64,000 nt of DNA, from contig NZ_BCSG01000008.1 of the NCBI RefSeq assembly GCF_001570745.1, positions 1 through 64,000 of the forward strand. The letters are read 5' to 3'. Both the position numbers and the translations under genes were made by a program. Positions 7,908-11,958 of the stretch are shown in pieces (within the stretch, counting starts at the first letter, position 1; every line of letters starts with the position of its first letter). The notes beneath the pieces were generated by a model. The model was not told the origin of the DNA and ran no database searches. It worked only from the letters and a program-made list of their open reading frames with translations. The DNA is from Alicyclobacillus mali NBRC 102425. Lineage in GTDB: Bacteria > Bacillota > Bacilli > Alicyclobacillales > Alicyclobacillaceae.

Positions 7908-8228
7908 GTGGAAGAGATCCGCACGAGCGAAAGGTATCGGGAAGCGGTGCAATCAGGCCGCGTGGTGGTGGAATTCTATGCGACGTGGTGTCCAGACTGC
8001 CGTCGCATTGAGCCATATTTGGGGGGATGGGAGGAAAAGTACCGTGAGCAATTCGCGCTGGTCCGCGTGAATCGGGACGAGGTGCCGGACTTGGCGGAAG
8101 AGTTGCAGATTCTCGGGATTCCGACCTTCCTCGTGTACGACCAAGGCCGCGAAGTCAAGCGGCTCTTCAGCCGCGACGCGAAGTCCAAGGAGCAGGTGGA
8201 GCAGTTCTTGGACCAGGCGTACGCCTGA
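7908..8228 (+). CDS. Thioredoxin-family protein with CPDC active site
   Basis: 106 aa, cytoplasmic, one thioredoxin domain. The active site is WCPDC (Cys28, Cys31) and the cis-proline loop reads GIPTFLV. CPDC instead of CGPC places it outside classical TrxA, among the thioredoxin-like proteins of Bacilli, and suggests a different redox potential or partner. GTG is the start, with GGAAGGGAG 8 bases upstream; TATAAT at 7879-7884 may be its -10. trxB lies two genes downstream, so a supply of electrons from thioredoxin reductase is plausible. Confidence 0.85.
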   Translation: MEEIRTSERYREAVQSGRVVVEFYATWCPDCRRIEPYLGGWEEKYREQFALVRVNRDEVPDLAEELQILGIPTFLVYDQGREVKRLFSRDAKSKEQVEQFLDQAYA

Positions 8229-8300
8229 TTTGTGCGATCACGGCCGCGGGCGGCAGTTGCCACTGCGGCCGTTCGCGCCAGGAGAGGGGCAGAGAGCGGT

Positions 8301-10214
8301 ATGACGTCGTTGCACCACTTTTTTCACCCGAAGGTGGTTGCGGTTGTGGGCGCGTCGAGAAATAAGGATCGACTCGGCCACGTCCTGTTTCGCCACATCT
8401 TGAACAGCGACTTTCGCGGGACGGTCTATCCCGTCAACCCATCGGCGCAATCGGTGGCCGCGGTGCGCGCCTACCCCAGCCTGCGCGACGTCCCGGAACC
8501 CGTCGATCTCGCCGTGCTCGTCGTGCCCGCTTCGCAGGTTTTGTCCGTGATCGACGACGTGATCGCGGCGGGCATCAAGCACGTGATGATCTTGTCGTCT
8601 GGGTTTTCCGACATGGACAAACCTGGCGAGGAGTTGGAGCGCGAGATCTCGGAAAAGCTGCGCGCGGCGGGGTGCCGCCTCATTGGCCCCAACAGCCTCG
8701 GCCTCATCCAGATGGACAGCGAGACGCGGCTGAACGCGAGCTTCGCGCCGAAGGTGCCGGAGTACGGTCATGTCGCCATCGCATCCCATTCTGGCGCGCT
8801 CGGCATCACCATCCTGGACTACGCGGCCTACATCGGTTTGGGCGTCGCCAGCTTCGTCAGCCTGGGCAACCGAGCGGACGTCTCGGGCAACGACCTGCTC
8901 CAATACTGGGGCGACGATCCGGCCATCGAGATGATCCTCCTGTACCTCGAGTCGTTTGGGAATCCAAGAAATTTCTCTCGGCTCGCCCGGCGCATCACAC
9001 GCCAGAAGCCCATCCTGGCTGTGAAGAGCGCGCGGACGCCCGTTGGCCACGATGTGGCGAACGCGCGCACGGTGTCGGTCGCGGCGGAGGACGCGACCGT
9101 CGAAGCGATGTTCCTGCAGGCGGGCGTCATCCGCGTGGATACGCTGCAGGAGCTGTTCGATGTCGCCGTCCTGCTGAAGGCAGGCCCTACGCGCGGTGGG
9201 CGCCGCGTGGCGGTTGTCACCAATACCGCCGGTGGGGCCGTAATGACCGTCGATCGCATTGTGCGCGAGGGACTCGATTTTGTCGGCCCGGTCATCAACG
9301 TGGGATTCGAGACGCTCGCCGAGAGCTACCGCGAGGTGCTGCCGCAGGTGTTGCGCGATCCGAGCGTGGATTCGGTCATCGTGCTCTTCACGCCTGTGGG
9401 CCCGTCCAATGAGGAGGCTGTGCGCGTCGCCATTTCGGCGGCACTGTGCGAAGTGGCGAACGATCCGCCCGCCCCAGGCGTCCGCCACCCATACGAGAAA
9501 CCGGTGGTGGCCAACTTTCTGACCACGGGCGACTACCGCGTGCGGATGCTTGAGGTGGACTCAGAGCGGCAGATCCCCATCTACCCGTTCCCGGAGCAGG
9601 CGGTTCGTGCGCTCGCGAAGGTCGTTGCGTATCACGAGTATCGCGAGAAGGATCCGGGCGTGATCCCGTTTGTGGACGGGATCGACACGGATTTGGCCAG
9701 GGCGCGCATGTTTCAGGAAATATCTGCCAAGTCGTATCGAGGCGAGGAGGACGTTCAGGGGCTCGTGATGCTCGATTGGCCCGCCGTCCGAGAGGTGCTG
9801 GCGGCCATCGGGCTGGACGCGGCGGATGCGCCGAACGCCCAAGCGGAAGAGCAGGCGAGCTTCAACATCGTCGTGGAGACCGATCCACTCTTTGGCCCGC
9901 TTCTGCGCCTGTACCTTTCCTCGGAGGAACGGGGCGCCGCGGCGCTCCGGCGCTCGGCCAAGACGCTGCCGACGGTGCGCCTCCTGCCGCTGACGGATGC
10001 GGACGCCAGAGAACTTTGGAGCGACGCGCTCTTGAACAGCGCTTCGTCGCGGATGAAGCCGCATGAGGACGTCGTGATCGACGCGATGATCCGAATGTCG
10101 CAGTGGGTGGAAGACGTGCCGGAGATTGTGGAGGCGGACCTGTATTTTGTCATTGAGGGAGACCGCGCCGTGTGCGTGGCGGGCCGAGTGGAAGTCGCGC
10201 GGCGCAACGGGTAA
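8301..10214 (+). CDS. Degenerate NDP-forming acyl-CoA synthetase-like protein, probably catalytically inactive
   Basis: 637 aa. Residues 8-130 are a CoA-binding Rossmann domain (VVAVVGASRNKDRLGHVLF), about 145-280 and 290-450 are the two succinyl-CoA-ligase-like domains, and 485-637 resemble the ATP-grasp domain. Two essential features are missing. The phosphohistidine motif (KSGR...SHTGALAG in active enzymes) reads KSARTPVGHDVANARTVSV, with Arg256 where the His should be. The ATP-grasp part runs from the first helix (DWPAVREVLAAIGL) straight to the late FNIVVETDPLFGP strand, skipping the ATP-binding lobe, and its metal-binding ELDINP equivalent reads EADLYF. It may be a CoA or acyl-CoA sensor. 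GGAGAGGGG precedes the ATG; trxB follows after 27 bases. Confidence 0.75.
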   Translation: MTSLHHFFHPKVVAVVGASRNKDRLGHVLFRHILNSDFRGTVYPVNPSAQSVAAVRAYPSLRDVPEPVDLAVLVVPASQVLSVIDDVIAAGIKHVMILSSGFSDMDKPGEELEREISEKLRAAGCRLIGPNSLGLIQMDSETRLNASFAPKVPEYGHVAIASHSGALGITILDYAAYIGLGVASFVSLGNRADVSGNDLLQYWGDDPAIEMILLYLESFGNPRNFSRLARRITRQKPILAVKSARTPVGHDVANARTVSVAAEDATVEAMFLQAGVIRVDTLQELFDVAVLLKAGPTRGGRRVAVVTNTAGGAVMTVDRIVREGLDFVGPVINVGFETLAESYREVLPQVLRDPSVDSVIVLFTPVGPSNEEAVRVAISAALCEVANDPPAPGVRHPYEKPVVANFLTTGDYRVRMLEVDSERQIPIYPFPEQAVRALAKVVAYHEYREKDPGVIPFVDGIDTDLARARMFQEISAKSYRGEEDVQGLVMLDWPAVREVLAAIGLDAADAPNAQAEEQASFNIVVETDPLFGPLLRLYLSSEERGAAALRRSAKTLPTVRLLPLTDADARELWSDALLNSASSRMKPHEDVVIDAMIRMSQWVEDVPEIVEADLYFVIEGDRAVCVAGRVEVARRNG

Positions 10215-10241: not shown

Positions 10242-11201
10242 ATGGAACACAGGAGGCTCATTATCCTGGGAACAGGGCCTGCCGGATACACGGCGGCCAT
10301 TTACGCGGCGCGAGCGAATCTCGAGCCGATGGTGTTTGAGGGAGACCAGGCGGGCGGCCAATTGACGCTGACGACCGAAGTGGAGAATTTCCCGGGCTTT
10401 CCGGATGGCGTGATGGGCCCGGAACTGATGGAGGCCATGAAGAAGCAGGCCGAGAAGTTCGGCGCGGAATTCAGACCGGGTGTTGCGACCGATGTCGACT
10501 TGTCGCAGCGCCCGTTTAAGGTCGTGATCGACAAGGAACGTGAATACACCGCGGACGCGCTCATCGTGGCGACGGGCGCTTCGGCCAAGCTGCTGGGTAT
10601 TGAGGGAGAGAGCGAGATGATTGGCCGGGGCGTGTCAACGTGCGCCACGTGCGACGGATTCTTCTTCCGAAACAAGCGCGTCATCGTGGTGGGCGGCGGC
10701 GACTCCGCCATGGAAGAGGCGACGTTCCTCACGAAATTCGCGTCCGAGGTGACGATTGTCCACCGCCGCGAGGAGTTCCGCGCGTCGAAGATCATGCAGG
10801 AGCGCGCCAAGTCGAATCCGAAAATCCGGTTTGTGATGAACGTGCAGTCGAAGCGCGTGCTGTCAGATGGCAACAAGGTGACGGGGCTCGAGGTGGTGGA
10901 CAACCAGACGGGCGAGACGAAGGTGCTCGAGGCGGACGGCGTGTTCGTCGCCATCGGCCACAAACCGAACACGGACTTCCTGCGCGGCCAGCTCGAGTTG
11001 GACGACATCGGGTACATCATCACCAAGGGCAACACGTCGGAGACGAGCGTGGAAGGAGTCTTTGCCTGCGGCGACGTGATGGATTCGCGCTATCGGCAGG
11101 CCATCACAGCGGCGGGATCTGGCTGCAAAGCGGCCATGGACGCAGAGAAGTTCCTGGAGGGTCAGGCGGCGCACGATTGGTCGGTGTCGCTCAACGCCTG
11201 A
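10242..11201 (+). CDS. trxB: Thioredoxin-disulfide reductase
   Basis: 319 aa cytoplasmic flavoprotein that passes electrons from NADPH through FAD to thioredoxin. FAD site GTGPAGYTAAIYAARA at residues 10-25, redox pair CATC at Cys134/Cys137, NADPH site VVGGGDSAMEEATFL with HRREEFRA, and FAD C-terminal motif GVFACGDVMDSRYRQ. Length is normal for bacterial TrxB. A ribosome site GAGGGGAGG precedes the ATG. It may be co-transcribed with the pseudo-synthetase gene; the usual hprK-lgt neighbourhood is absent. Confidence 0.95.
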   Translation: MEHRRLIILGTGPAGYTAAIYAARANLEPMVFEGDQAGGQLTLTTEVENFPGFPDGVMGPELMEAMKKQAEKFGAEFRPGVATDVDLSQRPFKVVIDKEREYTADALIVATGASAKLLGIEGESEMIGRGVSTCATCDGFFFRNKRVIVVGGGDSAMEEATFLTKFASEVTIVHRREEFRASKIMQERAKSNPKIRFVMNVQSKRVLSDGNKVTGLEVVDNQTGETKVLEADGVFVAIGHKPNTDFLRGQLELDDIGYIITKGNTSETSVEGVFACGDVMDSRYRQAITAAGSGCKAAMDAEKFLEGQAAHDWSVSLNA

Positions 11202-11304: not shown

Positions 11305-11958
11305 ATGCAGCCGATGCAACCGACGTATGGTGGCCAGGGCCAGGGAATGGGCTACAATGCGCAGGTGTATCAGCAGATGCGCCAGTTCGCCACCCCGGCC
11401 GAAACGGTTCATCAGCACATGCAACAGGACGCGCAGTACGCACAGCCGTCTTACGGCTACGCGCCGATGGGGACCATGGGCATGGGCCACAGCATGCTGA
11501 GCCAGTTTGGGTCCAATCCGCAGATGGTTCGTCAACACATTCAGCAGGACCTGCAACAGTACGGCGGGCACCCGATGGGACAAGCGATGGCGGGGATGCA
11601 TGACAGTGCTGGATATGGTATGGGGTACGGCTCGTACGGCACGCCTCATCAGGCGCATGTCGTCTCCATGCAGGGACGCCAGGCGTATCAACAGGCGGCG
11701 GGCCAAGCACAAGGTGGCTACGGCATGTCGCCCTCGGGTTACGGCCCGCAATTCGGTATGATGGGTGCACAGGGCCACGCGCAACCCTACCAGCAACCGT
11801 ATCAACAGATGATGCACATGCAACCCGGTCAACAAGCTTACGGTTACGGGATGCAGAACCATCCGTCGCGCGGCGCGTTTGCACAATATGGGACGGATCC
11901 CCAGGTGGTGCGCCAACACATTCAGCAGGATCTCGGCTATTACGGTGCGATGCAGTGA
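11305..11958 (+). CDS. Low-complexity Gln/Met/Gly/Tyr-rich protein with three internal repeats
   Basis: 217 aa without cysteine, signal peptide or membrane helix. Gln, Met, Gly, Tyr and His make up most of it. A repeat occurs three times, at residues 25-42, 65-82 and 192-209, with the shared core V-x-Q-H-(I/M)-Q-Q-D preceded by Q-(F/Y)-(A/G)-(T/S). The long spacer (90-185) is PYQQPYQQ/GYG-type. AAGGAGTG lies 11 bases before the ATG. Composition and repeats resemble spore-coat or other self-assembling proteins. CATACTTCA near 11261 faintly resembles a sporulation-type -10, which is weak evidence. I cannot assign a function. Confidence 0.75.
   Translation: MQPMQPTYGGQGQGMGYNAQVYQQMRQFATPAETVHQHMQQDAQYAQPSYGYAPMGTMGMGHSMLSQFGSNPQMVRQHIQQDLQQYGGHPMGQAMAGMHDSAGYGMGYGSYGTPHQAHVVSMQGRQAYQQAAGQAQGGYGMSPSGYGPQFGMMGAQGHAQPYQQPYQQMMHMQPGQQAYGYGMQNHPSRGAFAQYGTDPQVVRQHIQQDLGYYGAMQ

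Follow-up and report, generated by a model that had tools for sequence, protein, structure and literature searches.

The open reading frame at 8301..10214 encodes what is left of a protein acetyltransferase. Comparison of its sequence and gene order with relatives shows that the 637-aa product derives from a compact type II Pat lysine acetyltransferase of which only the acyl-CoA-synthetase-like half is present, the N-terminal GNAT domain being missing in place. The frame runs intact from the ATG at 8301 to the stop at 10214. Coordinates refer to the window, i.e. the whole 64,000-nucleotide stretch that was analysed; the gene, its parts, the spacer in front of it and its two flanking genes all lie on the forward strand. 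Codon comparisons show that purifying selection on the orphan half is strong, and it therefore probably serves some function by itself. We suggest, with moderate confidence, that it is now a free-standing, non-catalytic sensor of CoA or acetyl-CoA, or a scaffold.

The first-pass annotation described the protein as a synthetase that had lost two catalytic centres, with CoA-binding and ligase domains that are well kept. The domains are indeed well kept. A CoA-binding Rossmann domain (Pfam CoA_binding_2, E 9.9e-24) covers residues 11-135 (8331..8705), and a succinyl-CoA-ligase-like domain (Pfam PF13607 Succ_CoA_lig, E 8.3e-49) covers residues 156-291 (8766..9173). The losses are also found as described. 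Only the second half of the ATP-grasp domain is left, at residues 517-627 (9849..10181), where Pfam ATP-grasp_5 is matched over profile positions 108-216 of 221 (E 6.7e-7, 29.3 bits, cut-off 27.6); the ATP-binding lobe is gone while the last part is retained. In ADP-forming synthetases a catalytic histidine is phosphorylated. At this position the orphan protein has Arg256 (codon CGC, 9066..9068), which aligns with the His of the ...SHT... motif in solved ADP-forming synthetases and falls in the same column as the His of two His-bearing relatives, L087 and L088. The former phosphohistidine loop, residues 244-262 (9030..9086), is the longest of three segments with pLDDT below 50 in an AlphaFold model that otherwise has a confident fold (pLDDT 84.7, pTM 0.84). 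No usable His is seen at this site in the family: none of the 26 sequences in alignment A2 has one, with R in 20, P in 3, I in 2 and A in 1. This alignment takes in 8 of the 10 loci without a GNAT and 18 of the 20 fused ones (L005, L011, L027 and L031 left out).

Compared with L087 and L088, the ATP-grasp domain of the orphan protein is short of 43 columns in one place and about 27 in another, and a loop of 20 columns is missing behind residue 331. The fused relatives, which carry the GNAT domain and the synthetase half in one chain, have the same ATP-grasp gap and are also without the His. In these alignments, the loss of the His and the shrinkage of the ATP-grasp domain are common to the fused relatives and predate the loss of the GNAT. 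The idea that a synthetase decayed here is therefore not supported; the gene descends from a type II Pat that lost its GNAT. The parts of an active ADP-forming acyl-CoA synthetase that are found are the CoA-binding and ligase domains, whereas the phosphohistidine and a complete ATP-grasp domain are absent, and the protein is predicted to have no synthetase activity. By its domains and residues it is neither an acetyltransferase nor a synthetase, and it descends from an acetyltransferase. L087 (frame from 1644, 940 aa) and L088 (frame from 1910, 932 aa) are more distant members of the class, in which an N-terminal GNAT-like domain is followed by a synthetase half with the SHT His still in place and with a full-length ATP-grasp region. 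These two might combine an acetyltransferase and an active synthetase in one chain.

At the level of the order, 47 of 59 genomes have a match at E<=1e-60; 37 of these align from the GNAT on, while ten start at the synthetase half. These ten (G000-G003, G005, G009-G012 and G014) are all Alicyclobacillus and make up 10 of the 15 genomes of the genus; the other five carry the GNAT. Named species without the GNAT are A. sendaiensis, A. fructus, A. hesperidum, A. sacchari, A. tengchongensis and A. acidiphilus, and named species with it are A. suci and A. fastidiosus. The GNAT-less form recurs in assemblies of one contig (G003) and four contigs (G002), and together with its presence in ten genomes this speaks against an assembly error. 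Within the family an orthologue is found in 33 of 41 genomes, and 23 of the 33 begin with a GNAT domain of about 175 residues and a linker. Among 398 genomes drawn from the class, most of these included, 37 had a match at E<=1e-100, and none of the 37 added to the GNAT-less cases.

The identity of the missing domain can be read from the fused relatives, whose Alicyclobacillus members are 65-69% identical to the orphan protein. Pfam calls the N-terminal domain a GNAT in all three proteins tested. The GNAT of one fused relative matches the chains of 4nxy and 4u5y (3e-17 and 7e-17), deposited under the title 'acyl-CoA synthetase', which we take to be the GNAT of S. lividans PatA, and, at 3.5e-7, the part of E. 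coli PatZ that forms its GNAT. Glu92, Gly105 and Gly107 are invariant in the GNATs of the 15 of 20 fused loci that form alignment A1 (L014, L015, L021, L023 and L024 lie outside it). A GNAT followed by an NDP-forming acyl-CoA synthetase domain that has no His and is inactive is the layout given for type II lysine acetyltransferases in passages of PMC8556138, and the same order of domains is given in part of PMC6456759. The N-terminal GNAT is absent from our open reading frame, while identity, flanking genes and the tree all point to common descent. Apart from lacking the GNAT, the orphan protein also differs from the S. lividans PatA kind in that it and the aligned fused relatives are without the first half of the ATP-grasp domain.

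The site of the loss is clear from gene order, which is Trx, GNAT-synthetase, TrxB in GNAT-bearing Alicyclobacillus and Trx, synthetase, TrxB in the GNAT-less genomes. In the 15 Alicyclobacillus loci compared, the left flank is the gene of the thioredoxin-like protein (here 7908..8228) and the right flank is trxB (here 10242..11201, 27 bp 3' of the orphan gene). From the stop of the Trx gene to the first residue of the synthetase half there are 67-75 bp in all ten GNAT-less loci, against 622-628 bp in all five fused Alicyclobacillus loci. These distances between the same flanks point to a loss of the GNAT by deletion in place. In the window the space left is 72 bp (8229..8300), at the site that in GNAT-bearing Alicyclobacillus is taken up by spacer, GNAT and linker. 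A Shine-Dalgarno-like stretch, GGAGAGGGG, and a GGCCGC..GCGGCC inverted repeat were spotted in it by eye; a terminator scan made no call on the repeat, and we claim no terminator.

Nor has the GNAT moved elsewhere in recognisable form. A Pat-GNAT profile built from 15 fused relatives finds the five fused Alicyclobacillus genomes at 6.2e-78 or better, while its best matches in the ten GNAT-less genomes are at 7.8e-4 (this genome) and 1.4e-4 (G011), with nothing at 1e-3 in the other eight. In a tree of the rows of alignment A2 plus L087-L090, the 8 GNAT-less rows form one clade inside the fused family with support 100/100, although the branch joining the five fused Alicyclobacillus is weak (87/60). 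One loss is enough to explain such a clade, and we infer that a single deletion event removed the GNAT. The first-pass annotation had asked for a check whether the degenerate form is a conserved clade next to trxB, and would have been refuted by its absence in relatives; the form is conserved in them.

A new acetyltransferase partner could have taken the place of the lost domain. This genome has 13 PF00583 genes, which were set against 10 loci of G011, covering 11 of its 14 matches, and 28 loci of G006, covering 30 of its 38 matches; among the PF00583 matches listed no replacement GNAT was found. Two GNATs of this genome, L048 and L049, had a good match in G011 and no good match in G006 among these. 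L048 was rejected as a replacement, as it occurs in four of the five fused genomes and is broken in the GNAT-less G002. The mirror image of the orphan case is also found in the family: G020-G022 and G033 (assembly 85% complete) have lone GNATs (L067, L079, L080 and L081) with frames of 196-206 aa and without a synthetase half, which match the Pat-GNAT profile at 1.4e-30 to 5.0e-52.

The setting of the ancestor may have been protein acetylation. Outside Alicyclobacillus, all 18 family genomes with a fused gene have a strong sirtuin (PF02146, E 1e-41 or better), as does G033. The other 22 of the 41 family genomes are without it, 21 of these having no more than a sirtuin of weaker score; the two classes are separated by E-value and identity (48-100% against 33%) and not by a tree. 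In 13 of the 18 non-Alicyclobacillus genomes the sirtuin gene directly adjoins the fused gene, as it does in L090 and L091, the two loci of a second family that were inspected, and does not in L087-L089. The two neighbours are likely an acetylase and deacetylase pair, which fits a role of the ancestor in reversible protein acetylation. The strong sirtuin is missing from all 15 Alicyclobacillus, fused or GNAT-less, so the order of loss was probably first the sirtuin and then, in one clade, the GNAT.

What may the remaining half do? According to passages of a 2021 review, what exactly the inactive acyl-CoA synthetase half does in Pat enzymes is not completely understood (PMC8556138). The same source reports that the His-less domain of type I and II KATs binds acetyl-CoA (290 nM in SePat) and promotes oligomerisation, and that in SePat and PatZ the synthetase half does both and is needed for activity. 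By analogy, the Rossmann domain of the lone half would bind CoA or acetyl-CoA, and the half may then change shape or oligomerise, as reported for the same domain in SePat. The signal would be passed in trans to another protein; AcsA is one candidate, and a different acetyltransferase or some other CoA-linked enzyme could equally be the target. In its more specific form, the suggestion is that an intramolecular regulatory domain turned into a stand-alone acetyl-CoA sensor throughout the clade in Alicyclobacillus, with old or new targets that it reaches in trans. This we put forward tentatively, as something quite possible.

A regulator that senses a ligand and acts in trans on an acetylation system has a precedent in AcuB of the Bacillus Acu system. 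However, AcuB is built from Bateman and ACT domains, and in its AMP-bound form inhibits the deacetylase AcuC (PMC13121692, in part). It counts against a sensor that, according to passages of PMC8556138, E. coli PatZ cannot do without its synthetase half and its GNAT is inactive in isolation, so that one would not by default expect a half to be useful alone. The first-pass annotation had proposed non-catalytic sensing of CoA or acyl-CoA from the loss of the catalytic centres. With an intact frame under purifying selection this is still the natural reading, while a decay from a synthetase at this site is not supported. The orphan half is a natural experiment: whatever its function, it acts without acetyltransferase activity of its own, and may reveal the contribution of the regulatory half by itself. 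Searches of one open-access library found no paper on GNAT-less Pat forms, and none that combines Alicyclobacillus, lysine acetylation and acetyltransferase; we do not claim that the case is unpublished.

A rather unlikely alternative is that the orphan half is a direct inhibitor or sink, which binds free CoA or acyl-CoA or docks on AcsA, and does not work through another acetyltransferase. AcsA is the classical target of Pat, and acsA is present in all 41 family genomes, as would suit an inhibitor. There is also the example of B. subtilis AcuA, which restrains AcsA by complex formation besides acetylation, as part of PMC11910552 describes. However, the orphan gene is unlinked to acsA, whose two acsA-type matches in this genome lie on contigs C20 and C1. 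No AcuA gene was identified beside acsA in the ORF lists. Loss of the acetylation target, as a cause of the GNAT loss, is unsupported: besides the presence of acsA in every family genome, the motif PKTRSGK is kept in both AcsA copies here. The AcsA C-termini of G006 and G001 (L097 and L098) read PKTRSAK, with a Gly-to-Ala change beside the Lys that is usually acetylated by Pat enzymes.

It is improbable that the gene is a dying remnant, i.e. that the Pat system is being dismantled by genome streamlining, first the sirtuin and then the GNAT, and the synthetase half is yet to decay. The strong sirtuin is gone from all 15 Alicyclobacillus, as such dismantling would have it, and nine of the ten GNAT-less genomes are small (2.8-3.2 Mb; G001 has 3.9). 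PF00583 matches number 13, 14 and 14 in three small genomes and 34 in G001, against 37, 38 and 46 in three fused ones. However, all ten GNAT-less frames are open, with no internal stops, and the median dN/dS of the orphan gene in the GNAT-less clade is 0.024 (18 of 45 pairs usable). The estimates were made by NG86, which is rough at high dS, from pairs with dS 0.01-1.5 only; even so, such a low value argues strongly against a dead gene. At the same loci trxB has a median of 0.035 (22 of 45 pairs), and that of the thioredoxin gene is 0.084 (21 of 45). By part, the CoA-binding domain (residues 1-135) is the slowest at 0.008 (20 of 45 pairs), the two ligase parts follow at 0.013 and 0.015, and the C-terminal ATP-grasp part changes faster at 0.062.

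The orphan gene is not uniformly tighter than trxB. In the L009-L011 group it has 0.031-0.034 against 0.019-0.020 for trxB, and the saturated pair L003-L009, which lies outside the medians, gives 0.066 against 0.048. The comparison among fused loci is thin (2 or 3 of 10 pairs, for the gene 2 of 10), with medians of 0.045 for the gene and 0.029 for trxB. The columns of the alignment also speak against a decaying gene, as only 9 of the 133 that are invariant in the 18 fused rows vary in the 8 GNAT-less rows. In the 8 GNAT-less rows V and N replace C87 and K224, which are conserved in at least 90% of the fused rows; we attach no meaning to this.

The position directly before trxB, as first described, could suggest a redox partner that works with the flanking thioredoxin and thioredoxin reductase, e.g. 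on CoA disulphide. In all ten GNAT-less loci trxB lies 27-35 bp downstream and the Trx gene 67-75 bp upstream. However, all five fused Alicyclobacillus loci have the same flanks, and trxB lies near the fused gene in only two of the 18 other fused family genomes (both g6, at about 1.9 kb), searched over about 7 kb or to the contig end. In one of the 15 Alicyclobacillus loci trxB is 535 bp away. Since fused Alicyclobacillus have this neighbourhood too and other genera rarely do, it says little for a partnership with TrxB, and we find this explanation very improbable.

Structurally, the model of the orphan protein matches ckcACD1 with CoA (4xyl, Z 39.7) and PatZ (9it0, Z 35.9). The synthetase-like half of E. 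coli PatZ (9isq and 9it0) aligns over model residues 1-637; however, the synthetase half of this type I Pat is longer and is followed by a C-terminal GNAT, while the orphan frame has no GNAT. With the ADP-forming synthetases, i.e. ckcACD1 and the Nitrosopumilus 4-hydroxybutyrate ligase (8wzu), the protein shares the CoA-binding and ligase domains and the overall fold, but not the phosphohistidine and the ATP-binding lobe. The DMSP lyase DddX (7cm9) also matches, with Z 33.7 over 554 aligned residues, and is a case of the same superfamily fold being reused, so that a different chemistry on this fold could be imagined for the orphan protein. DddX itself is catalytic. This alternative is highly improbable, as the identity to DddX is only 22%, the ATP-binding lobe is missing and the fused ancestor points to a regulatory domain.

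That the protein is still a ligase, with a separate ATP-grasp subunit for the phosphoryl transfer as in some archaeal ADP-forming enzymes that are split into subunits, is hardly credible, as none of the 26 family rows has a His at the site and the other ATP-grasp_5 matches belong elsewhere or are partial. The best ATP-grasp_5 match in the genome lies just upstream of a succinyl-CoA ligase alpha-like gene on contig C12, the only other Succ_CoA_lig match in the genome, and is presumably its beta subunit. Besides the orphan gene, the remaining ATP-grasp_5 matches are partial and lie in other frames, and four of the five score below the curated cut-off. A separate subunit gene that restores activity, which could have overturned the first-pass annotation, is thus judged unlikely.

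Downstream of trxB lies a gene for a 217-aa protein (11305-11958) rich in Gln, Gly, Met and Tyr, with no Pfam (E<=0.1) or NCBIfam match. A relative is found beyond trxB in Alicyclobacillus loci and in two g6 loci, with an identity of 76-78% in the two species closest to this one, mostly 31-45% elsewhere, and higher values in a few short stretches.
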